A DNA stretch of 32,299 nt from a candidate division FCPU426 bacterium (GTDB taxonomy: Bacteria > Oederibacteriota > JAAXVQ01 > JAUVAV01): NCBI GenBank assembly GCA_030591525.1, contig JAUVAV010000032.1, positions 1 through 32,299 on the forward strand. Reading direction: 5' to 3'. The notes under the pieces are model-generated. The model was given only the letters and a program-made list of their open reading frames with translations, searched no databases and was not told the origin of the DNA. The position numbers and the translations under genes were made by a program. Positions 1,570 through 23,404 of this stretch are shown here, one piece after another. Position 1 is the stretch's first letter. Each line of letters starts with the position of its first letter.

Positions 1570-3033
1570 TCACCTAACCACCACTAACTTGCCGCGGGCG
1601 GTTTGTCCTTCGGCCTCAAAATATACCAAATAGGTTCCGGACCCGGCATACGCTCCGTCCCAAAGAATTTCATGGGATCCGGCTGAAAGCGAGCCATCCC
1701 AGAGCGTGGCAACTCTTCGTCCAACGAGGTCGTAAATTTGCAGCCGGACTTGGCAGGACCGGGAAAGGTTGACCAGCATTTTGGCGCTCTCGCCGCGAGA
1801 AACCATGACCAAGGCATGGGCAATTTTGAATAAAGGCGCGACCTCCGGAGATGGGGTGGGCGTAACTATGCTGGTAGGGGTGGCCGTTGGCATAAACGCA
1901 ACATAATGTTTGACATAGATTTGATTCGCAGTGCCATTGGATTCATGCCAGCTCGCATAGGGAGTGCCATTGGAAATATCCAAACTAGGTGAATACGCAC
2001 TTTGGAACACATTAATATTCAGACTCCCGCCAGCTTGTTCCCAGCTGCTCCCATTATAGTGTTTGACATAGATTTGAAACGCAGCGTCGATTTGTTCCCG
2101 CCAAGCTACATACGGCGGGCTGTTGGAAGCGGCAATATAAGGATAATAGGCATATTGGTTCGTATTTATATTCAAACTCCCGCCAGCCTGCTTCCAGTCA
2201 CTCCCGTTATAATGCTTGACATAGATTTGATCTGCCAAGCCGTTGTCTTCCTTCCAGGTCACATACGGTGTGCCATTGGAAATAGCAATATCTGAGTAAC
2301 GCGCGTTTTGGTTAACATTGACATTCAGACCCCCTCCGTCTTGAACCCAGCTCACCCCATTGTAATGCTTGACATAGATTTGAACGCCTCCGCTGAATTC
2401 CCACCAAGTTACATAGGGCGTGCCATGGGAAATATCCATTTTGGGACCTGACGCCGTTTGGCCGGTATTTACGTTCAGGCTCCCGTTGTCTGATATCCAG
2501 GCGCTCCCATTATAATGTTTGACATAGATCTGATTCGCAGTGCCATTGGATTCTTGCCAGCACACATACGGTGTGCCATTGAAGACCGCTATATCACAAA
2601 CATATGCGCTCTGGGCCGCATTCATATTCAGACTCCCGCCGTCCTGCACCCAGCTGTTCCCATTATAATGTTTGACATAGATTTTGCTTATCACCTCATC
2701 GGATTCCGACCAGGTTACATAGGGCATGTCATTGTAAATACTTATAAAAGGGAAATTTGCATTTTCGCCCGTATTGATATTCAAACTTCCGCCATCCTGC
2801 ACCCAGCTGTTCCCATCATAATGTTTGACATAGACTTGATTTGTAATGCCATTGAATTCCGACCAAGTCACATAGGGTGTAGCATTATAGCTGCTAATAA
2901 CAGCGAACTTTGCGTTTTGGTCCGGATTCACATTCAGGCTGCCGCCGTCCTGGATCCAATCGCTCCCAGCTGCTGGAATTTGACTAAGCCAGCATAAAAC
3001 AAGTCCCATTAAAATTACTGCGGTTTTTTTCAT
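1570..3033 (-). CDS. Secreted seven-repeat (putative beta-propeller) protein with C-terminal sorting-like domain
   Basis: This 487-residue protein is of unknown function. The ATG at 3033 is chosen because it begins a clear signal peptide (MKKTAVILMGLVLCW...) and has AAAGGA just upstream; an in-frame ATG at 3084 would add 17 non-signal residues. After cleavage come seven tandem repeats of about 51 residues. Each runs W-x-QDGGSLNxN..., then NGTPYVTWxE, then QIYVKHYNG. Seven beta-rich units suggest a seven-bladed propeller or similar lectin-like fold (inference). A Thr/Pro linker (TPTATPTSIVTPTPSP) leads to a ~90-residue module containing LQIYDLVGRRVATLWDG and SGTYLVYFEAEG, typical of FlgD-Ig/type IX-like C-terminal sorting domains. 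The protein is therefore probably exported across the outer membrane or surface-anchored. It is the last gene of the inserted block, downstream of the PorV-like gene, which fits a type IX-like route. Confidence 0.75.
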   Translation of the reverse strand: MKKTAVILMGLVLCWLSQIPAAGSDWIQDGGSLNVNPDQNAKFAVISSYNATPYVTWSEFNGITNQVYVKHYDGNSWVQDGGSLNINTGENANFPFISIYNDMPYVTWSESDEVISKIYVKHYNGNSWVQDGGSLNMNAAQSAYVCDIAVFNGTPYVCWQESNGTANQIYVKHYNGSAWISDNGSLNVNTGQTASGPKMDISHGTPYVTWWEFSGGVQIYVKHYNGVSWVQDGGGLNVNVNQNARYSDIAISNGTPYVTWKEDNGLADQIYVKHYNGSDWKQAGGSLNINTNQYAYYPYIAASNSPPYVAWREQIDAAFQIYVKHYNGSSWEQAGGSLNINVFQSAYSPSLDISNGTPYASWHESNGTANQIYVKHYVAFMPTATPTSIVTPTPSPEVAPLFKIAHALVMVSRGESAKMLVNLSRSCQVRLQIYDLVGRRVATLWDGSLSAGSHEILWDGAYAGSGTYLVYFEAEGQTARGKLVVVR

Positions 3034-3171
3034 GATTTTCCTTTGTGTCTTCGGTAAAGGGGCACCTGCCATGCGCGCCGGCATTTCTAAAGGAGAGGGT
3101 TAGTATAGGGTCAAGTCAGGGCAGGTCGAGCTTCTACATATAATAAAGAAACGATGAGATTATGAATTATT

Positions 3172-3216: not shown

Positions 3217-5025
3217 TCAGCGACTTCGATGCTGCTGATTGAACATTTCTTCAACTTCGGCCGGGTTCATCTGCATTTCATATACTTTTAGTTTTTCTCT
3301 CAGTTTATCTATTTCCTCATAGGAGGTTATTTCTTCCTGCCGGATTTGCGCTTTTTTTGATTGCTCGGCCTCCACCTGGTTTGGCCGGCTGGCAGCCCTC
3401 CCGGCGGATTCCATTCCGGCCGGGATTAAAACTTTTATTTCCACGCGCCGGTTGGCCAGCCGGCCGGCCGGTTTTTTATTATCCCCTATAGGCCGGGTTT
3501 CACCGTATCCTACGGGTATCAAATTGGCTGCGTTCAACTCGAAAATGCTAACCAGGTATTTTTTAACTGCTTCCACCCGTTTTTGTGAGAGACGCTGGTT
3601 GGCCTGGGTCTCTCCGTCGGAATCCGTGTGCCCCTCAATTCTAACTTTTACCTGAGACTGTTTTTCGAGAATTTCCCCAATCTTGTCCAGGGTCTGAAAT
3701 GATTTCCGCTGCAGAATAGCCTTCCCGGTCTGAAACCGGATAGGCGGCAATATTCCCCGCTTGATTAACTTATTTACCCGGTCCAAGCTGCGGCGGACCA
3801 GTTCGATTTTCTTTCTGATATCGTTCATCATGACCTTCAGCTTGGCTTCATCGCGGGCCCGCTCCTGTGCCAGTTCCTTATCACGCTTGGTTGCCAGGTT
3901 TTCCTCCTGTTCCTGACCAGGCAATAAGGAAGGCGCTAAAGAGCCGGTCGGCGAATATCTCAGGTCCGTGGGCAGAGATATTTTCGAGCCCGGCAGCACG
4001 GGCGAGGAAGGCAAAAAAGTTAAGGTTAAGGCTACGCGATGAGTGGATCCCAGTTCGCCGTAAGGCACAAAAGCATAGTCCAGTTGGTATTTTAAAACAC
4101 CGGATTGAATGGCAAAACCCGCGCCAACAGTCAATCCTGCCAAAGCATCCAGGTCCTTGATTTCAGGACCTACTTTGTATCCCATACGAATCGCGGATTC
4201 GGTATGCTCGCTGATATGGGCGTATTCCGCGCCCAGGGTAAATTTAACATCATTATCAACCGGTATCAGGATATCCAAACCTGCAGTTCCGCGTCCCAAG
4301 GGTGTGAAAAGATTCTGCTCAACATAACCCGCCCCCAGACGGAAGTTTATAGGCATAAGCTTATCCGTTGAAACTCCCAGGTTCTGGGCCGTCAATCCCA
4401 AGCGCCACCCCTGGTCCCTGACGGCCGGTTTATCCGCCGAATCCTTAAACTCTTCGGTTTGGCGCCAAATTGCGCCGATATCCAGGGCTCCGCCAAAAAC
4501 ATTCACTTCATCCAGGCTTTCGGTCACCAGTCGCAAACTGGCGCCTAGCAAAACATTTTTAAGCCAAGGATCTTTAATCGGCATTAATCGGGATAATTTT
4601 TGCGCGTAAGTCCCCACCAAGGCAAAACTTAAGGACGTAATTTCATCGCCCGTTCCGCGGTAGTTCCCATACTCATCTTCCAGGGTTTCTACTATTGTCC
4701 CGGCGTGCATAACCGTAAGCCCGCCAGCCACAGCCCCTAATGGTCCCAGCGGTGTGCCGTACGCCAGATACTCAGTTCCGATATCCTGGAACCAAAAATT
4801 ATGCATAAAACTGGCCTGGGGTGAAGTCATTTGCACCAGACCCGCTGGGTTCCAGTAAAGCGTATCTAATCCATCACCCAAGGCGATATAGGTCTCGCCC
4901 ATGGCAATCGGACGAACTCCTTGTCCGGCCTTAAGAAAGTTGGCGCTGGTGCTTCCCGGCCCCCCGGCTACAGCCGCACCGTGAAATATAAGCAATGCCA
5001 TCAAGGAGATCACGATCGGCCGCAT
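3217..5025 (-). CDS. PorV/PorQ-family outer-membrane protein fused to an OmpA-like peptidoglycan-binding domain
   Basis: This 602-residue protein begins with a signal peptide (residues 1-20, ending AAVA). Residues 22-338 resemble the PorV/PorQ (UPF0164) barrel family: SANFLKAGQGVRPIAMGETY, then LYWNPAGL, then repeated amphipathic strands ending in THRVALTLTF. A charged, Lys/Glu/Arg-rich helix (about 371-425) links to an OmpA C-terminal domain (428-536) with GHTDSDG at 465-471 and NRRVEIKV at 525-532, the residues expected to hold diaminopimelate. A short coiled-coil tail ends the protein. PorV proteins are outer-membrane partners of the type IX secretion system, while OmpA domains bind peptidoglycan. 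The fusion would tie such a barrel to the cell wall (inference). Its neighbour downstream carries a sorting-like C-terminus. Confidence 0.85.
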   Translation of the reverse strand: MRPIVISLMALLIFHGAAVAGGPGSTSANFLKAGQGVRPIAMGETYIALGDGLDTLYWNPAGLVQMTSPQASFMHNFWFQDIGTEYLAYGTPLGPLGAVAGGLTVMHAGTIVETLEDEYGNYRGTGDEITSLSFALVGTYAQKLSRLMPIKDPWLKNVLLGASLRLVTESLDEVNVFGGALDIGAIWRQTEEFKDSADKPAVRDQGWRLGLTAQNLGVSTDKLMPINFRLGAGYVEQNLFTPLGRGTAGLDILIPVDNDVKFTLGAEYAHISEHTESAIRMGYKVGPEIKDLDALAGLTVGAGFAIQSGVLKYQLDYAFVPYGELGSTHRVALTLTFLPSSPVLPGSKISLPTDLRYSPTGSLAPSLLPGQEQEENLATKRDKELAQERARDEAKLKVMMNDIRKKIELVRRSLDRVNKLIKRGILPPIRFQTGKAILQRKSFQTLDKIGEILEKQSQVKVRIEGHTDSDGETQANQRLSQKRVEAVKKYLVSIFELNAANLIPVGYGETRPIGDNKKPAGRLANRRVEIKVLIPAGMESAGRAASRPNQVEAEQSKKAQIRQEEITSYEEIDKLREKLKVYEMQMNPAEVEEMFNQQHRSR

Positions 5026-5165: not shown

Positions 5166-6050
5166 TTACTTCCGCCAGGCACGCCAACGCCGGTGTCCCC
5201 AAAACCACTGAGTTGGATACTCACGGACCCGTGCCCCCACTAGTTTGTTCATAGCAGCCACCGCCTGCTTAGCGACAATTTCCGGGGTTCCTTCACGCCG
5301 GATTGCAAATTCAGGTCCAATATATAGCTTAAGCGATTGGTCTGGCAGGCGTATACAAAAGGCCGGTAGCAACGGGGCCCGGCCCTTCAATGCCAAGTTG
5401 GCCGCCCCTAAGGTGGAACCGGCCGGATGTCCCATAAAATCAACATAAACCCCGCCGGTTTCTACTTGATCAATGAGTATGCCCAAAACACCTCCGGCCT
5501 TTAGGTGGGAATAGGCATGATAAGCACACAGGTGGCGGGGATTGTCCGCGATTACTTTTACACCCAGACGTTCACGGAACCAGGCATAGAGGCGGGATAC
5601 TTTTTGATCCGAAGATTCGCGGAAAATAAATTTCAAATTGCATAATTGCGCCAGCCCGGCGGTCAGAAGCACAAAATTTCCCAGATGCGCGGAAAAAACC
5701 ACCACGCCTTTCCCTTGGGCTATCGCTTTAGTGAGATGCTCCTGGCCTTCAATTTGTAAAAATTTTCCGAGTGCATGCGGACGTCCGGCAGCATGTATGG
5801 CCTCGAGCAATACTTCTCCCAAATGAGCAAAATTCTTCCCAGCCATCCGCTGCCTATCATATGGGTTGATGCGCTCCCCATATACGAGTTGAAGATTATC
5901 CCGCGCTATGCCTGCCCGTTCAGGCATTAAGGCATAGGCCAGCCTTCCCAGACACGCGCCGATTTTCAGGCATAACCAGCGCGGGGTCCAGCCGAGCAAA
6001 TAAATCAATCCCCGGATTAGAGTTTGGAAAACAGTAGCTAGAATTTGCAC
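5166..6050 (-). CDS. LpxL/HtrB-family lysophospholipid acyltransferase with altered HX4E motif
   Basis: This 294-residue inner-membrane acyltransferase starts at GTG (6050), with a loosely spaced AAGGT upstream. Family members move an acyl chain from acyl-ACP to lipid A precursors or other lipids. An N-terminal hydrophobic anchor (about 5-40) is followed by SAHLGNFV. In relatives this motif reads HxGNWE, the catalytic His-X4-Glu; here His122 is kept but the Glu position is Val127 (GTG codon). Other family blocks are present: FRESSDQ, GGVLGILIDQ, YVDFMGHPAGSTLGAANLALKG, and a C-terminal PTQWFWGHRRW. It lies downstream of an ACP-KS-KS-like set, as in aryl-polyene-type clusters where an LpxL-like enzyme transfers the product. 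It could be active with a different base, have changed specificity, or be inactive. Confidence 0.85.
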   Translation of the reverse strand: MQILATVFQTLIRGLIYLLGWTPRWLCLKIGACLGRLAYALMPERAGIARDNLQLVYGERINPYDRQRMAGKNFAHLGEVLLEAIHAAGRPHALGKFLQIEGQEHLTKAIAQGKGVVVFSAHLGNFVLLTAGLAQLCNLKFIFRESSDQKVSRLYAWFRERLGVKVIADNPRHLCAYHAYSHLKAGGVLGILIDQVETGGVYVDFMGHPAGSTLGAANLALKGRAPLLPAFCIRLPDQSLKLYIGPEFAIRREGTPEIVAKQAVAAMNKLVGARVREYPTQWFWGHRRWRAWRK

Positions 6051-6129
6051 AAGAATTTATTTACCTTCTTATATTAATGCAACGGAACTTTTTCAGCACT
6101 CTTAACCTATTTAAATCGATAGGTCTTGT

Positions 6130-7185
6130 TTAATAATAAATATAAAGTGTATAATTAATTCTCCCACCTACACTGCACGCAAAATGAATAGCGTGTTGCC
6201 CTACAGTCCAATTAGTAATTGGTGTAATATCTGTAAACCCGGTGCCACTAATAACAAATGGGTGAGTCCCTGTTCCGTCTCCAAATTTACTCCATCCAAG
6301 TTTTGCAAGTAAATCAGCGGTCTTATCAACTCCATCAAGTAAAAATCGCATATTATTTAAATATTCATAAAATGTCCCAGTATGCAAAGAAAGACCAACT
6401 GGCATTAAGCCGGCATTATCCGTATCCCCAGGCGAGTTGGCTTGAGAAGTTTTTGTTCCCAAATCTCTGGATACTATCATACCGTTATAATTATCAACAT
6501 AATTTGGGGTATCGGAATTAGTACTTAAATAACTACCGCAACAGTTATGCTTAAAGGCATGATCATGACTTCCTAATACAATATCATGAGTGTGCGTTCC
6601 GGAATGGGTATGTTTATGTTGTCCAACCTCAGTGTAAAACAACGGATTAATCTTTTCACCTTTTAAAAACAAAGCAACTTTTCTTGGAACAACATCAAGG
6701 TGAAAATATATACTACCTCCTTCAGGCGCCGAAATATCTATAGAATCATGGAAAACTAATGGTGTCTGGACATGATTCGCATATTCCGCCCTCATGGCAT
6801 AAGGCACGCTTATTATTTTCTGTCGGTGAAAATCATTCCATATACCGTCCTTATAAAAGGTCAGGGCGAGGTAGTAATTCTTATCAAATATTGGCAGGGA
6901 ATTAATCCCGCCTAACCAGACATTGAAGCCTCCACCCCTGACCGGCACTCCATGACTTTGAATGATAAGATGTTGTTCTTCCCAAATTTTATTAACCTCT
7001 GCTGTGCTGGTCTCATGATCCCATAATACAAATTTCATATCATAATCACCATCTGGCACCAGATTCCCCTGCTTATCCGTCAATTTACCGGAATAGGTGA
7101 TCAATTTGGGCACCTCGGCCGCGATACTTGCCGCAATCAAACCGGTTAAAATGATCACACTAATGAAAATGCGGATATTTTTCAT
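6130..7185 (-). CDS. Secreted protein of unknown function with a His-rich cluster
   Basis: This 351-residue protein is not recognised as a known family. A signal peptide (about residues 1-23, ending SIAA) is followed by VPKLITYSGKLTDKQGN and a beta-rich region ending in KIISVPYAMRAEYAN. That last motif recalls modules seen before fibre-like domains in exported bacterial proteins. A mid-protein segment packs many histidines in alternation (GQHKHTHSGTHTHD, then GSHDHAFKHNCC), as in metal-binding turns of phage tail collar and fibre proteins. The C-terminal half is Gly/Asn/Thr rich. The start has a GGGAGAT ribosome site. AT content appears higher than its neighbours. A trimeric, metal-stabilised surface fibre is possible but unproven. 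Confidence 0.6.
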   Translation of the reverse strand: MKNIRIFISVIILTGLIAASIAAEVPKLITYSGKLTDKQGNLVPDGDYDMKFVLWDHETSTAEVNKIWEEQHLIIQSHGVPVRGGGFNVWLGGINSLPIFDKNYYLALTFYKDGIWNDFHRQKIISVPYAMRAEYANHVQTPLVFHDSIDISAPEGGSIYFHLDVVPRKVALFLKGEKINPLFYTEVGQHKHTHSGTHTHDIVLGSHDHAFKHNCCGSYLSTNSDTPNYVDNYNGMIVSRDLGTKTSQANSPGDTDNAGLMPVGLSLHTGTFYEYLNNMRFLLDGVDKTADLLAKLGWSKFGDGTGTHPFVISGTGFTDITPITNWTVGQHAIHFACSVGGRINYTLYIYY

Positions 7186-7297
7186 TGCTTATCTCCCTCG
7201 CTATGTGATTTTTACTTCGCTTCGTTAATTTAGACAACCCGCATGAAAAATCCTTTCACCCGGATTGCGATTTTTTCCCGGCGCAGACCGCAAAGTT

Positions 7298-8461
7298 TCA
7301 ATTATTTTTTTCAAATAGATATGCATAATTGAGACCCGTACGGTCGGTAATGCTTAATAATACGCTCTGGCCGTTGAAAGCGGAAGCTTGGGTAGCAATA
7401 TTGAGTTTTGGCAGACTAGGATCAGGAACAAACCAGGGAGAAGCCGGCCATTGGCCTGTGGATAAAGCTAAACTCGCGCAGAGCGCGCCAAAAGCTTCGG
7501 CCGCGCCATCTAAACGCCCTAAAGCGCCGGCCATGGCAAAAACCGGGATCTCACCTAATCGCCGTCCGAAAACCGACTCCAGGGCCCGCATTTCCCGCGC
7601 ATCTTCTGCCGGACTCCCTTCAGCCGAAACTATGATTCCACCAATGCTCTCAGCCGGAATTCCCGCCCGCTCGAGCGCCTGTCTGACAGCCCGGGCTAAT
7701 TGCCCGCCTTCGGGATCATTATTATTTAATCCAACGGCGTCAAAAGTACCGGCATAGCCGGCATACCAGGCATAAACTCCGGCTTCTTGATGAACAATGC
7801 TTGGATTTTCTTTTTCAATCCGGAGTGCGGCTGCGCCTTCTCCCAGCCAGGCTCCGTCCCGGTGCAAAGATAATGGCTGCGGGCGTGTCCGGGAAATTTC
7901 CAACGCGCCCTGCTGCCGCGGCCGGGATGCTTCTTCCATGCCTGCTGCTAAAATTGCCGGGTTCCGCTTGAGCGCCAGAACGTCCCAGGCTTCGGCCAGG
8001 GCGCCGCTGCCGGAAAGTGTATTATTATAACCTTTCAAGCCGGTTTCTATGCTGGCATAGCCCGTACCGGCGTTCAGTGCCGTATTGGGATATTCCATGG
8101 GATTGGCGCGCTGAGGCCCACGGGAAATATTCCGGGCCGTAAACCGGACTATGGTATCCAGGCTGCCCAGATTAGTACTCACACACATGCCAATATGTTC
8201 AGGCTGAATTTGCGCAGACGATTTCCTCTTGTCATTTACCGCGCTTTTTACCGCCATGGCGAGTATTTGGGAGGCCCGGTCCATACGGCGTATGTTATCT
8301 TCGGATAATAAGGTCTCAGGAGTAAATTCCTTTAGAGAGATAACGCCCTCCTGATCAGCGGCTGGGGCACGGCCTTCACATAAAGCTTGCCAAAACATTT
8401 GAGGGCTGCTACCGTGTTGATGAAGAACACCCAATCCGGTAACCGCAAATTTCTGCTTCAT
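7298..8461 (-). CDS. Ketosynthase-like protein lacking catalytic residues (KS-beta/chain-length-factor-like)
   Basis: This 387-residue thiolase-fold protein aligns along its length with the preceding ketosynthase but has lost the active site. The catalytic Cys position is Leu149 (in NNTLSGSGAL), the first His is Glu281 (SAEGSPAED for NAHGTGTP), the conserved Lys is Ala311, and the second His is Arg316 (GALGRLDGAA). Type II polyketide and aryl-polyene systems pair an active KS with such a partner (KS-beta or chain length factor), which shapes chain length in a heterodimer. Its ATG overlaps the stop of the KS gene by four bases (ATGA), so the two are translationally coupled, as expected for heterodimer subunits. 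It lacks the Gln many actinobacterial chain length factors have in place of Cys, so the assignment rests on pairing and substitutions. Confidence 0.8.
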   Translation of the reverse strand: MKQKFAVTGLGVLHQHGSSPQMFWQALCEGRAPAADQEGVISLKEFTPETLLSEDNIRRMDRASQILAMAVKSAVNDKRKSSAQIQPEHIGMCVSTNLGSLDTIVRFTARNISRGPQRANPMEYPNTALNAGTGYASIETGLKGYNNTLSGSGALAEAWDVLALKRNPAILAAGMEEASRPRQQGALEISRTRPQPLSLHRDGAWLGEGAAALRIEKENPSIVHQEAGVYAWYAGYAGTFDAVGLNNNDPEGGQLARAVRQALERAGIPAESIGGIIVSAEGSPAEDAREMRALESVFGRRLGEIPVFAMAGALGRLDGAAEAFGALCASLALSTGQWPASPWFVPDPSLPKLNIATQASAFNGQSVLLSITDRTGLNYAYLFEKNN

Positions 8462-9675
8462 GCCTGTACCGTATCCGCATCGTCCCTGGCTGAACTAAAA
8501 ATCAGGCTGGCATTGTTCCCGCCGAATCCAAAGGAATTGGAAAGGACATTTCTGACCTTGGCCGGCCGGGCCAGGTCGGGAATATAATCCAGAGTACAAT
8601 CAGGCGCACCGGGCAGATAATTCAAGGTCGGAGGCAGAGTTCCATTTAATATAGTCAATACCGAGGCCACGGCTTCCACCGCACCGGCCGCGCCCATGCA
8701 ATGCCCCACTGCGGCCTTGATCGAGGAAATCGGAGGGCCGGAAACTCTCTCCCCAAAAACTTTCTTAAACGCGCGGCTCTCCATGCTGTCATTCTGCGGA
8801 GTCCCGGTGCCGTGAGCATTTACGTAATCAATATCCGTTGGCTCTAGACCTGCATCCGCCAGAGCCGCCTGCATGGCGCGGGCCGCACCGCTGCCCTCGG
8901 GTTCGGGCGCGGTAATATGGTACGCATCTTCAGCCAAACCGGCTCCTATCGCATATGCCAGGGGAACCGCGCCCCGCTGCCGGGCGGATTCCAGCGCCTC
9001 CAGAATTAAAATCCCGGCGCCTTCGCCGATTACCAGTCCTTCATGATTAATTGAAAATGGAGCACACTGTTTCGGAGCCGCGGAACGCAGGGCATTAAAA
9101 CCGGAGAAGGCCAGTTGGCAAAAGGCATCCGCGCCGCCGGTTACTACGGCATCGGCATGCCCCAACCGAATTAGATCCATCGCACGGCTAATGGCTGCGC
9201 CGGAAGCAGCGCAAGCAATCACCGGGACTCCCATGGGACCATGAAAACCAAACACTGATCCTAGGTAACGCGAAATACCGGAGAGCATATACACCGGCAA
9301 GCTTGGCCCGGGATTAATCTCCTGCTGATTCTCAATCTGGCGGGCTAACTCGTCTTCCAAGCTCCTCATTCCACCCTGCAGAGTTCCGATAACTACTGCG
9401 GTACGTTCGGGCGGAAGTTGTCCTCCTGCCTGGTTTATCGCTTCCCGGGCGGCTGATACTGCGAGATCATAAACCCGGTCAGGATGACCGGTTTCCGGAA
9501 GGAACTCCTTAATTTCACAACCAACATGCGTACGCCAGGCAGCACTATCAAAACTCTCGACTGTGCCGAGCCCGGACTTGCCGGCAATCAACCTCTCCCA
9601 AAAGTCACGGCAATTCGTGCCCAGGCTATTAACCGTACCCATCCCGGTAACTGCCACCCTGCGCGCTGAAGTCAT
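8458..9675 (-). CDS. Beta-ketoacyl-ACP synthase II-like ketosynthase (KS-alpha)
   Basis: This 405-residue FabF-type condensing enzyme has a complete active site: Cys155 in VIACAASGAA, His288 in NAHGTGTP, Lys320 and His325 in SSIKAAVGHCMGAAG, plus the C-terminal NSFGFGGNNASLIF loop. It performs decarboxylative Claisen condensation between an acyl chain and malonyl-ACP. The gene starts three bases after the ACP stop and overlaps the KS-like partner by four bases, making an ACP-KS-KS-beta cassette. Such pairing is not typical of a primary fabF, which usually stands next to acpP and fabG without an inactive paralogue. It could still be the housekeeping FabF if no other copy exists in the genome. 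Confidence 0.85.
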   Translation of the reverse strand: MTSARRVAVTGMGTVNSLGTNCRDFWERLIAGKSGLGTVESFDSAAWRTHVGCEIKEFLPETGHPDRVYDLAVSAAREAINQAGGQLPPERTAVVIGTLQGGMRSLEDELARQIENQQEINPGPSLPVYMLSGISRYLGSVFGFHGPMGVPVIACAASGAAISRAMDLIRLGHADAVVTGGADAFCQLAFSGFNALRSAAPKQCAPFSINHEGLVIGEGAGILILEALESARQRGAVPLAYAIGAGLAEDAYHITAPEPEGSGAARAMQAALADAGLEPTDIDYVNAHGTGTPQNDSMESRAFKKVFGERVSGPPISSIKAAVGHCMGAAGAVEAVASVLTILNGTLPPTLNYLPGAPDCTLDYIPDLARPAKVRNVLSNSFGFGGNNASLIFSSARDDADTVQA

Positions 9676-9678: not shown

Positions 9679-9933
9679 CTAAACTTTTGATTTGCCTTTT
9701 ATAAATTGCGCGATTTCTTCGATGCTATTTAATTTTTCCACTTCATCATCCGATATTTCCAGGTTGAATCGTTCTTCCAGCACGGTTACCAACGTCAAAA
9801 CATCCACTGAATCCAGGTATAATCCGCCTCCAAAAAGCTTTTCCTGGTCCGGGATGCTTTCCGGCTCGCGCTTTAGCTTCAAGCCATCCACGATAACCTT
9901 TTTTATTTCAGGCTTTAAATCCTGTTCGGACAT
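9679..9933 (-). CDS. Acyl carrier protein
   Basis: This 84-residue acidic four-helix carrier protein has the phosphopantetheine site LDSVDVLTLV (Ser in LDSVD) and the usual EERFNLEISDDEVEKLNSIEE helix. The ATG at 9933 is preferred over one at 9957 because it follows a perfect AGGAGG at nine-base spacing. It differs from textbook AcpP (DSLDTVE), with a Gly-rich LFGGGLYLDSVD loop, so it may be dedicated to the downstream KS pair. It begins only 36 bases after tRNA-Gly and may be read from the tRNA promoter; no separate promoter was found. Confidence 0.92.
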   Translation of the reverse strand: MSEQDLKPEIKKVIVDGLKLKREPESIPDQEKLFGGGLYLDSVDVLTLVTVLEERFNLEISDDEVEKLNSIEEIAQFIKGKSKV

Positions 9934-9969
9934 ATCGCAATCCCTCCTGGAAATCATGCTTTCAGACTT

Positions 9970-13119: not shown

Positions 13120-13857
13120 TTAGCCCTGTTGTCTGCGGATTTCAAACAAGGCGATCCCCGCGGCCACGGCCGCATTCAGGGAGTTTAGTTTCCCCTGCAT
13201 GGGAATACGCAGCAGGAGGTCGCACGATTCCCTGGTCAAACGCCTCAGCCCCTTGCCCTCACCGCCGATCACCAGGGCCAGGGGACGATTAAGGTCCGCT
13301 TTCCAGATATCCTGTCCGGCCGAGCTTTCCAGACCCGCGACCCAGATGCCGGCGTCTTTCATCTCCCGCAAGGTATTGACCAGATTCACTACCCTGACAA
13401 TCGGCAGATGTTCAACCGCTCCACCGGAAGCTTTGGAAGCCGCTTCCGTGATCTCGGCGCTCCGGTGAGTGGTTAGCACCATTCCCAGGGCTCCCGCTCC
13501 TTCAGCGCAACGCGCAATAGCGCCCAGATTGCGGGGATCTTCTATCTCATCGGCTACTACGATAAGGGTTCCGGTTGGCTGGGCTTTTGCCTGGTCAAGC
13601 ATGACGTTCCAGTCAGCATACTCCCGGCTTTTTAGCATGGCGATCACTCCCTGGTGCGCCACCCGCCCGGCTAATTTCTCCAAGCGTCGCCGGTCCTGTA
13701 CCTCAATAACCAGGCCGCGGGTCTCGGCCAGGTCCTGGATTTCCCGCAGGATGGCACCATGGGTTCCCCGGGCCAGCATTATTTTCTCCACTTGCGTCTG
13801 GGAAGATCGCAGAGCTTCAATTACGGCTCGGCGGCCGAATATTTTTTTAAAGCCCAT
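13120..13857 (-). CDS. rlmB: 23S rRNA (guanosine-2'-O-)-methyltransferase RlmB, SpoU/TrmH family
   Basis: This 245-residue enzyme is predicted to methylate the ribose of a guanosine in the peptidyl-transferase P loop of 23S rRNA. An N-terminal substrate-binding domain (FGRRAVIEALRSS...) is joined to a trefoil-knot SPOUT domain. The three SpoU motifs are present: EDPRNLGAIARCAEGAGA, LVIGGEGKGLRR, and IPMQGKLNSLNAAVAAGIALFE. Length is normal. It follows cysS, a common gene pair (cysS-rlmB) in many bacteria, with the ~153-base nested palindrome in between. RlmB is the best call; another SpoU 2'-O-methyltransferase is less likely. Confidence 0.9.
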   Translation of the reverse strand: MGFKKIFGRRAVIEALRSSQTQVEKIMLARGTHGAILREIQDLAETRGLVIEVQDRRRLEKLAGRVAHQGVIAMLKSREYADWNVMLDQAKAQPTGTLIVVADEIEDPRNLGAIARCAEGAGALGMVLTTHRSAEITEAASKASGGAVEHLPIVRVVNLVNTLREMKDAGIWVAGLESSAGQDIWKADLNRPLALVIGGEGKGLRRLTRESCDLLLRIPMQGKLNSLNAAVAAGIALFEIRRQQG

Positions 13858-13880
13858 GGTTATGACTCCTATCTAGCATC

Positions 13881-14033
13881 TGTTGTGGAAACGTGTTTTC
13901 TTAAGTTTGTCATTCCGAACGTAGTGAGGGATCTCCACGGAAACGCCTGAAATATCAAGTCTCTGGGAGATTCTTCGCCTTCGGCTCAGAATGACAAACA
14001 CGGGAAGTCCACTAAAAATGGCTTTCCACAACA
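13881..14033. repeat. Nested palindromic element, copy A (about 153 bp)
   Basis: An outer perfect 11-bp inverted repeat (TGTTGTGGAAA / TTTCCACAACA) encloses an inner perfect 10-bp one (TTTGTCATTC / GAATGACAAA). The inner arms continue imperfectly through a GAACGTAGTGAGGGATCTC-type sequence. Copy B at 17611-17764 has the same plan and shares the 3' arm wording (ACACGGGAAGT, then CTAAAA, then GGCTT). There is no reading frame. It fills the cysS-rlmB gap. Confidence 0.8.
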
Positions 14034-14037
14034 AATA

Positions 14038-15546
14038 CTAGCTGTCTTCCTTCTTCTCTTTTAAGTCAGAAGGAAGGTAGTTATCAGGTATCACATGACT
14101 CTTTCCGGAAGATAGCGGACGGCTAACAGCGCTTACTAGAGAAATCCCCCTAATGTCATCTAAATTCCATCCCTTTGAACCTATTTGACACCGTTTCTCA
14201 TCTGCTTCTTGCCAGCGTTTATTTTTCCGGTCCTCTTCGCGTGCCATTCTCTTTTCATGTATATCTTCTGGCACTTCCGGTAATTCAGGTTTGAAGCCCA
14301 AGACATCGGCCATTTCGAGCATACTCTCCTTGATCCTTTCCAGTACCGTGGTCTTTTTCAGGAAATGCCCGGCTATAAATTGGCGCACAGTATTGGCCAA
14401 GGCTAATAGATGCCCCATAGCGGCCGCAGTATTTAAATCATCATCCAGTGCCCGGTCAAAACCGGCTAATGCCTCCTTACGCTCGCTCTCCAGCTTTCCC
14501 GCTTCTTCGTCCGGGACTTCCTCATAACTTATATCTTTTCTTGACAGCAGGTCTTTCAAATTCCACAAGGTATGTTCAAACTCCTCAAAACCATTTTTAG
14601 CGGCTTCGAGATTCTCGGGATTAAAATCCAAGGGACTACGGTAATGCGCGGACAACATAAAGAAACGGAGCACCTGGTAATTATTTCGGAAAGCTATGTT
14701 TTTCAGCACATCCCGGGTAAGCCAAAAATTACCCAAAGACTTGGACATCTTCTCGCCCTCGATTTTCAGATACCCGTTGTGCAGCCAGTACCGGGCCAGG
14801 GGTTTTCCGGTCAGGCTCTCGCTCTGTGCGTTCTCGTTCTCATGGTGCGGAAAAACCAGGTCCACCCCGCCGCCATGAATATCAAAACTCTCTCCCAGAT
14901 ACTTCATGGACATGGCCGAGCACTCGATATGCCAGCCCGGACGTCCCGGCCCCCAGGGCGAATCCCAGGCCGGTTCGCCGGGCTTGACAGATTTCCAGAG
15001 CGCGAAATCCAGAGGATTCTGCTTGCGTTCATCAATCTCCACCCGCGCTCCGCTCTCCAATTCATTAATCTTCTTCCCGGACAGTTTCCCGTAATCCGGA
15101 AAACTGTTCACCGAAAAAAACACGTTTCCGTCCGCCTGGTAGGCATGATGGCCCTCCAGCAGTCGTGAGACCAGGCCGATAATCTCAGCCATATGTTCCG
15201 TGGCCCGGGGAGTAATGTCCGCTCTCCGGCAGCCCAGGGCTTCTAAATCCTGAAAAAAAGCGGTGGTGAATTCCTCGGCCAGTTCCCGGGGATCCCGGCC
15301 TTCGTCCCGGGCCCGGTTGATTATCTTATCATCCACATCCGTGATGTTCTGAACATAAGTAACCTCAAAACCTCTGCGCTCCAGCACGCGGCGCAGGATA
15401 TCGAACACTATAAAAGCCCGCGCATTGCCTACGTGAAAATAATCATAAACCGTGGGCCCGCAGACGTACATTTTAACTTTACCGGGACTCGCCGGCCGGA
15501 ATTCTTCCTTGCGCCGCGTAGCGGTATTGAATAAACAAATCGGCAT
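14038..15546 (-). CDS. cysS: Cysteinyl-tRNA synthetase
   Basis: This 502-residue class I synthetase charges tRNA-Cys. Residue Cys29 in CGPTVYD, the HIGH-type motif HVGN (38-41), Cys209 in WHIECSAM, His234 and Glu238 in VFPHHENE (zinc site), and KMSKS (266-270) are all present. The start ATG at 15546 is followed by the canonical [13 protein letters not shown] beginning. The C-terminal ~70 residues depart from the usual short ending: after the [15 protein letters not shown] helix they continue into a GWNLDDIRG segment and a charged tail. It lies downstream of the rplQ terminator and upstream of rlmB. Confidence 0.97.
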
Positions 15547-15561
15547 ACTTGCTCCTTCAAT

Positions 15562-15585
15562 TTCCCCGCTCTGAAGAGCGGGGAA
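15562..15585. repeat. Hairpin repeat upstream of cysS
   Basis: Eleven-base arms (TTCCCCGCTCT / AGAGCGGGGAA) with a two-base loop lie 16 bases before the cysS start codon. The hairpin overlaps the region where the ribosome site would be, so it could affect cysS translation, or it could simply be a dispersed palindrome. Confidence 0.7.
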
Positions 15586-15646
15586 TTGGATATGATCTGT
15601 AGATTATATAAATGTATATCCCGCATTTTGCTTTTTCAGCGAAATG

Positions 15647-15719
15647 TCCCCGGCTTGCCTGTCCTGCCTGTCCTGGATGGTTTGGTCCAGGGATAATTTT
15701 TATCAGGGAAGGCCGGGGA
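15647..15719. repeat. Imperfect palindrome with a 9-bp tandem repeat
   Basis: TCCCCGGC and GCCGGGGA form the outer arms. Inside the left half the 9-base unit GCCTGTCCT occurs twice in tandem (15657-15674). No coding content. It lies between the rplQ terminator and cysS. Confidence 0.55.
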
Positions 15720-15741
15720 ATTCGCGGTTAACATATTAAAT

Positions 15742-15773
15742 AAAAAAGGGCAGGCCCGGGGGCCTGCCCTTTT
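15742..15773 (-). terminator. Intrinsic terminator after rplQ
   Basis: On the minus strand AAAAGGGCAGGCCC pairs perfectly with GGGCCTGCCCTTTT across a two-base loop, and six T residues follow. It begins 15 bases after the rplQ stop and is the clear end of the ribosomal super-operon. Confidence 0.92.
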
Positions 15774-15787
15774 GCCAATAATCTTAC

Positions 15788-16558
15788 CTATTTCTTTTTA
15801 CTCGGTTTGCTGGTTTTCGGCTTAACTTTCTTGACTTTAGCAACCTTGACTTTAGCTTTACCGGCTTTTTTTGCAGCCGGTTTAGGCACTTCGCCCTTGC
15901 GCTTGGTTTTTTGCTCCGTCTTTTCCTGCTTAACTTTCTCGCGAACCACAGCCCGTTCCTTTTTTACTTTTTCTTTTTCAGCCTTACGTTCCGAGATTTT
16001 CTTCTCTTTTTCCGGCGCCTTAGCCTCGGTTTTTTTGGCCGCCTTCTTCAAACTCAGCTTGCTCTTAGCCGCCGGCTTCTTCTTTTCCTTAGGTTTTGCT
16101 TTTTCTTTTTCCGGTTTGTCTTTGCCCCCCGCTTTACCGGTTTTTTCCTCTTCCGTAACTTTGATCACCTTGGTATGCTGACCCGGCAACTTCGCGCCCG
16201 GAATCCAATCCACTAACTCCAAAAAAACCATGGGAGCAGCATCGCCCATCCGGGGTCCAATTTTAATAATACGGGTATACCCTCCCGGACGGTCTTTATA
16301 CCATTCCACTAAGTTGTCAAATATCCGGTTAACTACATCTTTACGCGAAATCATGCTCATGGCACGCCGGCGATGATGCAGTGATCCCCGTTTAGCCCAG
16401 GTAATTACTTTTTCGGCGATCGGACGGGTGGCTTTGGCCCGGATTAAAGTCGTCTGGATACGGCCGTGTAAAAAAAGCGCTTCCACTAATTGCTTCAGCA
16501 TAGCTTTTCTTCTATTAGAGGGAACGCCCAGCCTCTTTCCGCTTTTCCTGTGTCTCAT
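15788..16558 (-). CDS. rplQ: Ribosomal protein bL17 with a long lysine-rich C-terminal tail
   Basis: This 256-residue protein has residues 1-118 as a standard bL17 (MRHRKSGKRLGVPSNRRKAM, then LVEALFLHGRIQTT, ending MVFLELVDW). bL17 sits near the polypeptide exit of the 50S subunit. The remaining ~130 residues are almost entirely Lys, Ala, Glu and Pro, with stretches such as KEKAKPKEKKKPAAKSK, so the protein is about double the usual length. The tail is in frame with no stop or frameshift and ends just before the operon terminator. It is last in the alpha operon, 17 bases after rpoA. Confidence 0.97.
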   Translation of the reverse strand: MRHRKSGKRLGVPSNRRKAMLKQLVEALFLHGRIQTTLIRAKATRPIAEKVITWAKRGSLHHRRRAMSMISRKDVVNRIFDNLVEWYKDRPGGYTRIIKIGPRMGDAAPMVFLELVDWIPGAKLPGQHTKVIKVTEEEKTGKAGGKDKPEKEKAKPKEKKKPAAKSKLSLKKAAKKTEAKAPEKEKKISERKAEKEKVKKERAVVREKVKQEKTEQKTKRKGEVPKPAAKKAGKAKVKVAKVKKVKPKTSKPSKKK

Positions 16559-16575
16559 CGCCTCTTCCTTCCTGG

Positions 16576-17571
16576 TTATTTCTTCTTTTCAGCAACATCC
16601 GGGTTCTGCACAGAACTTAAATCCATGCCCAAATTCAGTCCCATTTCAGACAAAATCTCCTTGATTTCGTTCAATGACTTGCGTCCAAAATTTCGGTACC
16701 GGAGCATCTCGCTCTCGGTTTTGCTGACCAGATCACCTATCATCTTGATATTAGCCGTCTTCAGGCAGTTGCTGGAACGAACCGAAAGCTCCATTTCCTC
16801 CATGCTCCGGTTTAACAGCTCCCTGGTTTTTTCCTTCTCTTCATCCACTTCCTCAACCTCTTCTTCCGGTTCCTCCTCAAAGTTGATAAAGACCGGCATA
16901 TAATCCTTAAGGATTTTGGCGGCATGGGCCAAGGCATCTTCCGGTTTGATTCGGCCGTCAGTCCAGATTTCCACAATTAACCGGTCATAGTCGGTAGTCT
17001 GGCCCACACGGGCGTTTTCCGATCCCACATTAACTTTTAAGACCGGAGAAAATATGGAATCTACGGGAATCGTCCCCAGGGAATGCTCTTCCTGCCGGTT
17101 TCTGGCGGCATCCACATAACCACGGCCGGAATTAATTTCAATTTCCATCTCCAGGTCGGCGTCACGGTCGTTCAGGGTGACGATATGCATTTCCGGATTG
17201 AAAATTTCCACGGCATTAGTGGACTGAATATCCGCAGCCGTTACTTCCCGTTCTCCCTTAACCTGCACGAGCACGGTTCTCGGCCCCTCTTCAAGCAGTT
17301 TGACCTTCAACTGCTTGAGATTTAAAATAATATCCGTAGTGTCCTCAACTACTCCGGGAATGGCGGCGTATTCATGCTCGATTCCCCTGATTTTAACCGC
17401 CGTTACGGCCGCCGCCTGAATGGAAGACAGCAGAATCCGGCGCAATGAATTGCCAATGGTCCCTGCAAATCCCCTTTCAAATGGCTCCGCAATAAATTTC
17501 CCGTACTTGTCGTTCAAGGTTTCCCGTTCGCTTTCCAACCGCTCGGGCTTTACTAAGCTTTTCCATTTCAT
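16576..17571 (-). CDS. rpoA: DNA-directed RNA polymerase subunit alpha
   Basis: This 331-residue alpha subunit starts at ATG 17571, the conventional start (MKWKSLVKPERLE), preceded by AAAGGGG; an in-frame ATG 54 bases further upstream is rejected. The N-terminal dimerisation domain shows EPFERGFAGTIGNSLRRILL and the C-terminal domain shows ELSVRSSNCLKTANIKMIGDL and GRKSLNEIKEILSEMGL, which contact DNA and activators. The linker is strongly acidic (EEEPEEEVEEVDEEKEKT). It is separated from rpsD by 197 bases that contain palindromic copy B. Confidence 0.98.
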   Translation of the reverse strand: MKWKSLVKPERLESERETLNDKYGKFIAEPFERGFAGTIGNSLRRILLSSIQAAAVTAVKIRGIEHEYAAIPGVVEDTTDIILNLKQLKVKLLEEGPRTVLVQVKGEREVTAADIQSTNAVEIFNPEMHIVTLNDRDADLEMEIEINSGRGYVDAARNRQEEHSLGTIPVDSIFSPVLKVNVGSENARVGQTTDYDRLIVEIWTDGRIKPEDALAHAAKILKDYMPVFINFEEEPEEEVEEVDEEKEKTRELLNRSMEEMELSVRSSNCLKTANIKMIGDLVSKTESEMLRYRNFGRKSLNEIKEILSEMGLNLGMDLSSVQNPDVAEKKK

Positions 17572-17610
17572 CAGGCTGCACCCCTTTGGTGTTTCAGAAT
17601 TATATGGTAT

Positions 17611-17764
17611 CTGTTGCGTAAACACCCTTTTTTATAGTTGTCATTTCGAAGTGTAGCCGAGAAATCTCAAAAAATCCTTTAAACTCTGGATTTTCTCAAA
17701 GAATTCTTGCTATGCTCGAAATGACAAAACACGGGAAGTTTGCTAAAACCGGCTTCCCGCCACA
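17611..17764. repeat. Nested palindromic element, copy B (about 154 bp)
   Basis: It has the same architecture as copy A at 13881-14033: outer arms starting CTGTTGCG and ending CCGCCACAG (imperfect), and inner perfect 10-bp arms GTCATTTCGA / TCGAAATGAC (17640-17649 and 17716-17725). The right arm shares ACACGGGAAGT and CTAAAA with copy A. It fills the rpsD-rpoA gap inside the alpha operon, so it must be transcribed through. Confidence 0.8.
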
Positions 17765-17768
17765 GAAA

Positions 17769-18398
17769 CTATTTAGAATAAAGTTCTACCACCAACTGCT
17801 CCTGGATCGGCATGCCAATTTCTTCCCGGTTGGGTATCTGCTTAAAAGTCCCGGTTAGAGTTTCATGGTCGACCTCCAGCCATACCGGCACTCCACCTCT
17901 GCGGGCGATAGAGTCAACCGCCTCCCGGATACATTTAAGTTTTTTACTTTTCTCCCGCACTTCAATGCGGTCGCCCACCCGGACCTGGTAAGATGGGATA
18001 TCGGTTTTCCGTCCGTTAACAATCAAATGACCATGATTGATTAAATGCCGTGAAGCTATACGGTTAACGCCATATCCCATGCGAAACGCCACATTATCCA
18101 GGCGTCTTTCCAGTAATTGCAGCATGATCTCGCCGGTCACTCCCTGCTTGCGGCTGGCGACCTCGTAATAGTTCCGGAACTGTTTTTCCAGCAACCCGTA
18201 AATTCGACGAAGCTTCTGCTTCTCGCGAAGTTGCTTTCCATAATCGGAAATCTTGGCACGTCTCTCCTTGTGTTGTCCGGGCGGATAACTCCGGCGTTCC
18301 AAAGCACATTTATCCGTCAAACACTTGTTGCCCTTCAGGAAAAGTTTACTTCCTTCACGGCGGCACAGTTTGCATTCCGGGCCGATATATCTGGCCAT
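17769..18398 (-). CDS. rpsD: Ribosomal protein uS4 (zinc-type)
   Basis: This 209-residue 30S assembly protein binds 16S rRNA early. Four N-terminal cysteines (9, 12, 26, 31) in CKLCRREG...CLTDKC form the zinc-binding C+ version. The S4 RNA-binding domain ([15 protein letters not shown]...[22 protein letters not shown]) follows. The start has AAGGAGGT upstream. In many bacteria S4 represses its own operon, but no such RNA site is identified here. Confidence 0.98.
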
Positions 18399-18416
18399 TA
18401 AGTCAGTACCTCCTTT

Positions 18417-18809
18417 CTATACCCGGCGCCGTTTGGGCGCCCGACACCCATTATGGGGTATCGGTGTTACATCTTTAATCACGGTAATAATTAAACCTAT
18501 AGCTTGCAGACTTCGGATGGCAGCTTCCCGTCCTGCCCCCGGCCCTTTAACATACACCTCGACTTCCTGCATTCCCGCCTCCATAGCCCTCCGGCCGGCG
18601 GCCTCGGCTGTCATTTGCGCCGCAAAGGGTGTGCTTTTACGCGATCCCTTGAAACCCGTCTGGCCGGCCGAAGACCATGCAATGACTGCCCCGGTTTTAT
18701 CGGTAATGGATACAATGGTATTATTAAAGGTGGACTGGATATGCGCCCTTCCCTCACGGGGAGCTTTTTTTATTTTTTTCTTGGTTCGGCCTGAGACTTT
18801 TTTTGCCAC
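18417..18809 (-). CDS. rpsK: Ribosomal protein uS11
   Basis: This 130-residue platform protein of the 30S subunit reads [27 protein letters not shown] and ends in [20 protein letters not shown], both diagnostic. The start codon is GTG at 18809, nine bases after AAGGAGG; no ATG is available nearby. It lies between rpsM and rpsD in the standard alpha-operon order. Confidence 0.98.
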
Positions 18810-18849
18810 GCTTGCTGCCTCCTTCTTCCGCTAAAATTCTATATCTTTA

Positions 18850-19230
18850 TTACTTTTTATCCGGGGTCTTCTTGCCGCCCACGGTTTTTCTTGGCCCCTT
18901 ACGGGTTCTGGCATTGGTTCGCGTACGTTGTCCGCGCACCGGAAGTCTGCGCCGGTGGCGCAATCCCCGGTAGGAACCGATATCAATAAGCCGCTTAATA
19001 TTCTGGGCGATTTCGCGCCTTAGATCCCCTTCAATTTTGTAACTTTGATTAATTATGGTCTGAAGACGATGGATTTCATCTTCGGTTAAATTTTTAACCC
19101 GGATCTCAGGTGATACCCCCGCTTCTGCCGCAATGCGTTTGGCAAAAACCGGACCCAACCCGTAAATATAGGTCAAAGCCGTCTCAATGCGTTTATCTTT
19201 CGGCAAATCTACGCCGCTGATGCGAGCCAT
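18850..19230 (-). CDS. rpsM: Ribosomal protein uS13
   Basis: This 126-residue 30S head protein contacts the P-site tRNA and the 50S subunit. It starts [24 protein letters not shown] and ends with the basic [25 protein letters not shown] tail. AGGAGG precedes the ATG. It follows rpmJ by 59 bases. Confidence 0.98.
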
Positions 19231-19289
19231 AACTTCCTCCTAGGACTTTTTCTCTTTCCTTGGCGTCCTGAGCGCCGATCGGCGGATTT

Positions 19290-19403
19290 TTAGCCCTGCC
19301 GTTGTTTATGTTTAGGATTGACGCAAATTATTCTAATCACGCCTTTTCGTTTAATCACCTTGCATTTTTCACACATGGGTTTAACCGATGCCCGAACTTT
19401 CAT
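19290..19403 (-). CDS. rpmJ: Ribosomal protein bL36
   Basis: This 37-residue protein starts [20 protein letters not shown]. Cys11, Cys14, Cys27 and His32 form the zinc ribbon of the C+ form. The stop TAA is at 19290-19292. It stands in its usual place between infA and rpsM. Unusually, 136 bases with a long palindrome separate it from infA. Confidence 0.97.
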
Positions 19404-19457
19404 GTTAATCCATCCTCACTCTGCTAAATTAATATTTCAACCTACTTGGATTAATAC

Positions 19458-19529
19458 GTCATTCCGGCATGGTTTTAGCCGGAATCCAGTTATTTAAATC
19501 TCCTGGACCCCGGCTTTCGCCGGGGTGAC
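19458..19529. repeat. Two-part palindromic repeat between infA and rpmJ
   Basis: The outer arms GTCATTCCGGC and GCCGGGGTGAC pair imperfectly, and the inner arms CCGGAATCCAG and CTGGACCCCGG also pair. Each half also forms its own hairpin (CCGGCATGGTTTTAGCCGG and CCCCGGCTTTCGCCGGGG). It resembles the widespread GTCATTCC...GGAATCCAG / CTGGATCCCCG...GGGGATGAC dispersed repeat. It lies inside the super-operon. Confidence 0.8.
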
Positions 19530-19539
19530 AGCATATTGG

Positions 19540-19842
19540 TTACTTAAACCGATAAGTAATCCGTCCGCGCGACAAGTCGTAAGGCGACATCTCTACGGTA
19601 ACTCTGTCCCCGGGAAGAATCCGAATAAAATGCATCCGCATTTTTCCGGAAATGTGTCCCAGCACGACATGATCATTCTCTAATTTCACCCGAAACATGG
19701 CATTGGGAAGCGCTTCCAACACCTGGCCTTCCAATTGGATGGAATCTTCTTTGGCAACGGCCGGCGCAGCACTCTGGTTTGGAACCTTCTTGCGGGCGCT
19801 TTTATACTGGCGGCGGCTTCCATATTTTTTACGGGGACTCAT
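19540..19842 (-). CDS. infA: Translation initiation factor IF-1 with a 28-residue basic N-terminal extension
   Basis: IF-1 occupies the A site during initiation. Residues 30-100 are a complete IF-1 ([21 protein letters not shown] through [37 protein letters not shown]). The usual first Met position is Val29, encoded GTT, which cannot start translation. The ATG at 19842 therefore appears genuine, with GAGGT upstream and a four-base ATGA overlap with map. The extension ([19 protein letters not shown]...) is strongly basic and probably disordered. Confidence 0.95.
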
Positions 19843-20582
19843 ATAGTTATTACCTCTGCCTCCCTGTCTAATAAAGCCACAGTATATTCAAAATGGGATG
19901 AGAGCGAACCATCCTGGGTCACTACCGTCCATTTATCATCTAATACCCGGACCGCATATTGCCCGGCGTTCACCATCGGCTCAATCGCCAATACCATCCC
20001 TTTCTTCAAGCGCACGCCGCAATGCGGTTCCCCATAGTTGGGAATCTGCGGCGCCTCGTGCAATTCCCGCCCTATACCGTGACCTACAAAGTCCCGTACT
20101 ACTGAAAACCCGGCCGCTTCCACATGGGTCTGAACCGCATGTCCGATATCCGAAATCCGGTTGTTCGGCCGGGCTTGCGCTACGCCTAATTCCAGCGCTT
20201 CCCGCGTGACCCGCATGAGCCGTTCGGCTTCCGGATTAACTTGTCCTACGGCGTAAGTCCGGGCGGCATCCCCATACCATCCGTCGAGCCGGACCCCAAC
20301 ATCCACGCTGATAATCTCTCCGGCTTTAAGTATTCGCGGCCCTGGCATCCCATGCACTACCTGCTCATTCACCGAAGTGCACAAAGTCGCCGGGAATCCA
20401 CGGTAGCCTTTAAAACCCGGTTTAGCCCCCCGGGATCGAATTAACTTCTCCGCCCAGACATCCAGTTCTTGCGTAGTTATACCCGGCCGAATCATATCTT
20501 CCAAGCTGTTTAAAACCTCGCCCACAATTCGTCCCGCACGTCGCAGAAGATCAATTTCAGCCGGGGTTTTAATGGAAATCAA
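19839..20582 (-). CDS. map: Methionine aminopeptidase type I
   Basis: This 247-residue enzyme removes the N-terminal Met from nascent proteins. Metal ligands are visible at Asp94, Asp105, His168 ([11 protein letters not shown]), Glu201 (IEPM) and Glu232 (SSHFEYT), with His78 in the substrate pocket. The start is TTG at 20582 ([16 protein letters not shown] follows, matching the family start); no ATG fits. It begins four bases after adk and overlaps infA by four bases. Confidence 0.96.
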
Positions 20583-20586
20583 AACC

Positions 20587-21237
20587 TTAATTCCCTTTCA
20601 CAGCTGCGCGAATCGCGTTCAGAATCTCCGGAACCTCACCGATCGCAGTAATGGACCGCAATAATCCGTCCTGCCGGTAGAAATCTATTAAGGGCGCGGT
20701 TTGTTCGGCATAAACCGCCAACCGTTGAGTAATCGTTTCTTCATTATCGTCCGAGCGCGTAATTAACCCGGCTCCGCACCGGTCACATACATTCTCCACC
20801 CGGGGACGCAACGAGGTATTGACATTATAATTGGCATGGCATTGGGGACAAGCCCGCCGCCCGGTCAATCGTTGAATAATCACCTCACGGGAGACTTCAA
20901 TATTAACTACCGCATTCAACCCGTGATTTTGCTCCGCCAGAATCTTATCCAACGCCTCGGCCTGCTGGATAGTCCGGGGATATCCGTCCAAAATAAAACC
21001 CCGGACCGCGTCCGGTTCGGACAAGCGTTCGGCCATCATACCGGTCACAACCTCATCCGGCACCAAAGCCCCGCGCTCCATGTAGGTTTTAGCCTGCCGG
21101 CCGAGCTCCGTATTCTGCTTCACGTTCTCACGAAGAATATCTCCGGTTGAAATCGTAGGTATTTTCCATTCCCGGCTCAAGGGGCCGGCATAAGTTCCTT
21201 TTCCCGCTCCGGGTGCGCCTAAAAATATAAATCTCAT
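20587..21237 (-). CDS. adk: Adenylate kinase (zinc-lid, long form)
   Basis: This 216-residue enzyme interconverts ATP, ADP and AMP. The Walker A loop GAPGAGKGT (7-15), PTISTGDILRENV, and FILDGYPRTIQQAE are present. The LID carries a four-Cys zinc site (Cys130, 133, 151, 154), as in the long Gram-positive-type and many other adenylate kinases. It starts two bases after the secY stop, in the common secY-adk-map order. Confidence 0.97.
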   Translation of the reverse strand: MRFIFLGAPGAGKGTYAGPLSREWKIPTISTGDILRENVKQNTELGRQAKTYMERGALVPDEVVTGMMAERLSEPDAVRGFILDGYPRTIQQAEALDKILAEQNHGLNAVVNIEVSREVIIQRLTGRRACPQCHANYNVNTSLRPRVENVCDRCGAGLITRSDDNEETITQRLAVYAEQTAPLIDFYRQDGLLRSITAIGEVPEILNAIRAAVKGN

Positions 21238-21239
21238 CC

Positions 21240-23014: not shown

Positions 23015-23222
23015 GCTGCGACAACTCCTTTCGTTGAGAATGGAGTTCCTCAACCTTGACCATGTGCTGCACTACCCGGAGCATCCCCCTGATTTCGGGA
23101 CCATCCGGAAGTACGTGTGAACTTCCCCGTTTATGTAAACCCAAAGCGCTGACCGTTCCCCGCTGACGCTGCGTAGTTCCATTCACGCTGCTTTCTAATG
23201 TCACCTTCAATTGCTTCTCCAT
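23001..23222 (-). CDS. rpmD: Ribosomal protein uL30
   Basis: This 73-residue protein carries the uL30 core: LKVTLESSVNGTTQRQRGTVSALGLHKRGS, then VQHMVKVEE. The usual bacterial length is about 60; the extra C-terminal residues (LHSQRKELSQHENR) come from sequence overlapping the start of rplO. It follows rpsE after a 182-base gap containing a palindromic repeat. Confidence 0.96.
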   Translation of the reverse strand: MEKQLKVTLESSVNGTTQRQRGTVSALGLHKRGSSHVLPDGPEIRGMLRVVQHMVKVEELHSQRKELSQHENR

Positions 23223-23386: not shown

Positions 23387-23404
23387 CTCTTTCCTCAAAA
23401 GAAA

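Follow-up and report, generated by a model that had tools for sequence, protein, structure and literature searches.

The window analysed here, a stretch of 32,299 nucleotides from a candidate division FCPU426 bacterium (contig JAUVAV010000032.1), carries on its minus strand a gene for an acyltransferase of the lipid A type, preceded by genes for an acyl carrier protein (ACP), a ketosynthase (KS) and a KS-related protein (KSbeta). The features considered below are:

3217..5025, minus strand: outer-membrane-type protein with a C-terminal OmpA domain, the downstream neighbour, found by inspection also in genomes G002 and G003
5166..6050, minus strand: LpxL-type (PF03279) acyltransferase of 294 residues with an HX4V motif lacking the acid, from the open reading frame and PF03279 match, with LpxM and PatA as nearest folds
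5469..5471, minus strand: Asp194, aligned with LpxM D192 and PatA E200
5574..5576, minus strand: Arg159, aligned with the LpxM Arg159 that pairs with Glu127
5670..5672, minus strand: Val127 codon GTG at the HX4 acid position (plus-strand letters cac)
5673-5675, minus strand: Phe126 codon, adjoining that of Val127
5685..5687, minus strand: His122, the presumed catalytic base
6130..7185, minus strand: 351-residue open reading frame of a multicopy family, lying in about 1.25 kb inserted between the genes for KSbeta and the acyltransferase
7298..8461, minus strand: KSbeta, a chain-length-factor-like protein, from family match and alignment
8458..9675, minus strand: KS, a FabF-like ketosynthase, from family match
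9679..9957, minus strand: ACP (PP-binding, LDS motif), from Pfam

The acyltransferase frame runs from 6050 down to 5166 and starts with GTG, and the plus-strand reading of the same interval holds many stops. Its only Pfam match at E <= 0.001 is to PF03279 (Lip_A_acyltrans; 133.7 bits against a cut-off of 22.3, residues 10-290). The protein falls far below the NCBIfam cut-offs for LpxL and LpxM, with 108.3 bits for the LpxL/LpxP model TIGR02207 (curated cut-off 297.8), and it likewise stays under the curated cut-off of 209 for the PatA model PRK07920, at 58.7 bits. An AlphaFold model (pLDDT 87.2) finds LpxM (5knk/5kn7) as its top Foldseek match and the mycobacterial PIM acyltransferase PatA as the second nearest fold. 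When aligned to the PDB chain of Acinetobacter baumannii LpxM, whose numbering is offset by six in the alignment, residues H122, V127, R159 and D194 of the window protein correspond to H122, E127, R159 and D192.

The motif SAHLGNFVLL begins at residue 120, which places the conserved His at 122 and Val127, rather than the Glu or Asp of LpxL and LpxM, at the HX4 position; the coordinates and the GTG codon agree with the initial annotation, which had described this Val as one transversion away from GAG. That is true of the codon, though it is not the sole departure from the canonical motif, since the Trp of HxGNWE is also replaced, by Phe126, and the change therefore exceeds one base. The view that the other family blocks are intact holds in part: both the block-2 Arg159 and the block-3 Asp194 are kept, whereas the loop at residues 167-172 is longer than in acid-bearing relatives.

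What such a loss might mean depends on what the acid does in related enzymes. According to one review (PMC6286764), H122 and D192 of LpxM are hydrogen-bonded at 2.6 A, while E127 and R159 form an ion pair 7.6 A from the His. In PatA (PMC4792965), H126 bonds E200; replacing either residue by Ala (H126A, E200A) abolishes activity, and D131A retains 37% of it. The HX4 acid had been taken initially as the partner that the His needs, yet in both structures the His bonds the block-3 acid, which the window protein keeps as D194. The role of the Glu-Arg pair, as a second dyad, in acyl binding or in structure, has been debated from LpxM, LpxL and PatA.

One account of the Val, a sequencing or assembly error or the early decay of the gene, can be judged from close relatives. 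A search with the window protein gave matches in 54 of 59 genomes. A congener with 88% identity, from a separate assembly, has the same GTG codon at 127; the frame is intact and dN/dS between the two genes is 0.22 (NG86) or 0.31 (YN00), so the gene is under purifying selection. Orthologues in G001-G006 are 47-88% identical to the window protein, and residue 127 in G000-G006 is V, V, M, V, Y, Y and L respectively, with an acid in none of the seven, G002-G006 belonging to the same family and order as the window and its congener (G001); no orthologue was found in G007, a fragmented genome of the same order. Glu in close relatives, which the initial annotation had named as the sign of an error, was thus absent from every orthologue found, and its judgement that the gene is not simply decaying is borne out. 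Error or decay is ruled out by the congener and the orthologues, and we consider it extremely improbable. Residues H122, N125, F126, D194 and Q195 are kept in all seven orthologues, while Arg159 is lost in four and retained by both the window protein and the congener. E197 is also invariant in the seven, as is D169, which is shared in addition by two f4 proteins of A2. A plasmid search gave no close relative: of its 98 records, the 20 listed reach at best 32% identity and are mostly annotated as LpxL/LpxP-type.

A second possibility, that Val evolved in this lineage for a polyketide-like acyl chain, builds on the link to the ACP-KS-KSbeta genes raised at the outset. By alignment, KSbeta does not keep the Cys or either of the catalytic His motifs of the adjacent KS, and is therefore chain-length-factor-like. 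The window and G002 share the order ACP-KS-KSbeta-acyltransferase, with KSbeta and acyltransferase adjacent in G002 and an ACP frame upstream of its KS. A similar arrangement is found in the congener G001, where the contig starts inside KS and continues with KSbeta and the acyltransferase, the last two overlapping by 4 nt. Further favouring a link, the aryl polyene cluster joins KS, chain-length factor and ACPs with the acyltransferase ApeD, as described in PMC8253772, and the same four kinds of gene stand together here. The likeness to ApeD comes from gene content rather than sequence, however, and no aryl polyene-type reductase, dehydratase, aryl-ACP ligase or transport (Lol/RND) genes were recognised among those neighbouring open reading frames that were read. 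By this analogy, the KS, chain-length factor, ACP and acyltransferase may have been recruited to an aryl-polyene-like role.

Against a causal link, G004, G005 and G006 have acid-less acyltransferases, and their KSbeta matches are only weak and FabF-like, with no KSbeta orthologue detected; the loss of the acid is therefore independent of the trio, and KSbeta as its driver is rejected on the strength of these genomes. Many acid-less relatives, moreover, lie in LPS operons. The trio as the cause of the change is thus not supported, and we regard a lineage-specific adaptation to its product as quite improbable.

Several other features of the neighbourhood were seen. The insertion (window 6045-7300) is absent from the congener, where 14 bases separate the matching blocks. 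Beside the acyltransferase at L044 (G003:C62, about 2889-3047) there is a weak match to the C-terminus of KSbeta with a TAG stop, which may be the remnant of a lost KSbeta gene. Window positions 13120-32299 hold an RlmB-like methylase (Pfam) followed by what by eye are cysS and a ribosomal protein operon, with nothing unusual seen; in G004, as in the window, rlmB, cysS and the ribosomal operon share a contig with the acyltransferase gene.

To place the protein in its family, 384 genomes were screened with a profile made from nine acid-less proteins, and 274 of them gave a match at E <= 1e-20. About 100 regions fetched from the best-scoring part of this search, together with earlier loci, gave 153 distinct PF03279 proteins after removal of L002 (a duplicate of the window gene), rows with fewer than 200 aligned residues and identical copies; rows obtained later, among them two fragments and the exceptional L233, do not enter this count. 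His122 and Asp194 are present in all 153. Position 127 is Glu or Asp in 122 and lacks an acid in 31, a proportion that overstates the frequency of acid-less proteins as the query profile was built from them. The residues found instead are M (9), P (8), V (5), T (4), L (2), Y (2) and A (1). Other positions differ along the same line: Trp126 occurs in 112 of the 122 acid rows and in none of the 31 acid-less rows, and column 169, as displayed, holds residues in 28 of the 31 acid-less rows and a gap in 118 of the 122 others. Arg159 is present in 118/122 and 10/31 respectively (Fisher p about 1e-14, the rows not being independent). A scan of all alignment columns found no new acidic column common to the acid-less rows, D169 reaching 39%, which rules out a universal replacement acid among them.

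In a tree built without the active-site columns compared above, the query sits with 31 other rows in a group supported at SH-aLRT 98; 29 of these 32 rows are acid-less, and the acid label needs only 6 changes on the tree against a mean of 28.4 when shuffled. Two acid-less rows, L047 and L201, lie outside this group. For Arg159 the minimum number of changes is 3 in the acid rows and 5 in the acid-less rows, which are much less numerous; a coupling of Glu and Arg is not significant under phylogenetic control, where there are only 6 label changes and 2 starred independent pairs. Judged from the alignment and tree, the missing Glu is a normal trait common to an old subfamily of lipid A-type acyltransferases. 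Two rows deserve separate mention. L125 (G110) bears Glu inside the acid-less cluster; it also has the longer loop, Phe126 and a Trp at position 159, and is possibly an intermediate. L233 (G357), a distantly related PF03279 protein, has Arg at H+5 and lacks an aligned acid in block 3; this may reflect a misalignment or genuine divergence.

It could still be that the window protein is a paralogue without catalytic activity that serves a structural or regulatory function. PF03279 is represented twice in the host genome (2.70 Mb in 91 contigs, 96% complete), and the second protein, on contig 68, is a canonical one of the kind that the initial annotation had proposed to look for. Its motif is HLGNWEIL and its gene neighbours are of the SIS-CBS, HAD-hydrolase, LptC and LptA types; it is therefore likely the housekeeping late acyltransferase, so lipid A acylation does not need the window protein. 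Elsewhere the picture differs. In a PF03279 search of 17 genomes with acid-less copies, with residues read for matches with loci, six have only acid-less copies (one each in G251, G381, G296 and G305, two each in G130 and G226), these six being 85-96% complete, such that a canonical copy may be missing. LpxC is present in all 17 and in G000 (18/18).

The acid-less genes are also found in lipopolysaccharide settings. They adjoin WaaA, LpxK, DUF374 and heptosyltransferase genes at L107; WaaA, LpxK and heptosyltransferase genes at L108; WaaA at L111; an ABC exporter and heptosyltransferase genes at L104; and FabZ and LpxA at L109. These settings and the sole-type genomes are hard to square with a dead protein. 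At L107 (G137:C14) four acid-less acyltransferases stand in tandem within the LPS operon (LpxK, WaaA, DUF374 and ABC exporter identified), and at L105 (G275:C15) three do so; PF03279 matches number 8 in the 1.4 Mb G137 and 6 in G275. With His122 and Asp194 invariant over the deep cluster, purifying selection on the gene, and genomes whose sole PF03279 copies are acid-less, the non-catalytic role that had been offered as one option is disfavoured, and we consider it improbable.

Active enzymes lacking the acid are known. A literature survey for acid-less LpxL-type enzymes, in which most subscription papers lay outside coverage, yielded VexE and LpxJ and, among the reports listed, no description of this PF03279 subfamily. 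The Vi antigen acyltransferase VexE (PMC9597891) is active with Tyr at the acid position and needs its His and block-3 Asp: H466A has no detectable activity and that of D532A is substantially reduced. The likeness is drawn from this description rather than from sequence, and VexE has a large TPR domain, whereas the window protein, at 294 residues, has no Pfam domain beyond PF03279. LpxJ (PMC6148475) is active with neither the acid of block 1 nor the positive residue of block 2, and an H61-D132 dyad was proposed for it in that study; it belongs to another Pfam family, DUF374 (PF04028), to which the window protein has no match at E <= 0.001. PatA shares the His and block-3 acid but keeps HX4D, while LpxL and LpxM (HtrB/MsbB) share family, length, His122, Arg159 and Asp194 and differ in the Glu, Trp126 and the loop.

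Taken together, we think it probable, on comparative sequence grounds, that the window protein is a competent LpxL-type acyltransferase from an old subfamily that lacks the HX4 Glu and works with a His122-Asp194 dyad. As members of the subfamily retain the His together with another acidic residue needed for catalysis, this is probably a working enzyme and not a broken one. This is supported by the subfamily-wide loss of the acid, the invariant His and Asp, the drift of Arg159, purifying selection and the six genomes with no other PF03279 type. The strongest counterpoint comes from E. coli LpxL, the nearest well-studied enzyme, where activity losses given in the review (PMC6286764) are about 3000-fold for E137A against 15-fold for D200A (about 1000-fold for H132A and 170-fold for R169A); harmless loss of the Glu can therefore not be assumed. 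Also against it, the window protein and the congener both retain Arg159, which there has no partner.

In the proposed mechanism His122 would act as the general base and Asp194 as its charge-relay partner, as in PatA, VexE and LpxM, while the second pair of LpxM, Glu127-Arg159, would have been dismantled and the Glu position become hydrophobic or small. The enzyme would take an acyl chain from ACP and pass it to a lipid or glycolipid of the envelope, and in this lineage the neighbouring ACP-KS-KSbeta system may supply that chain. The active site does differ from that of LpxL, as the suggestion of an altered mechanism had it, and the specificity may be altered as well. More speculatively, there may be a deep, multi-phylum PF03279 subfamily with a single His-Asp dyad and the Glu-Arg pair lost, which serves as the sole late lipid A acyltransferase type in several lineages and in this phylum has been co-opted next to the trio of KS, chain-length factor and ACP for the attachment of an unusual acyl chain to a lipid of the envelope; we put this forward as a tentative picture.

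For the family as a whole, the acid-less proteins are naturally occurring cases in which the His-Asp dyad can be viewed apart from the Glu-Arg pair. A missing Glu in HX4E is thus an unsafe sign of a dead LpxL homologue, and acid-less copies should be retained when lipid A genes are annotated.
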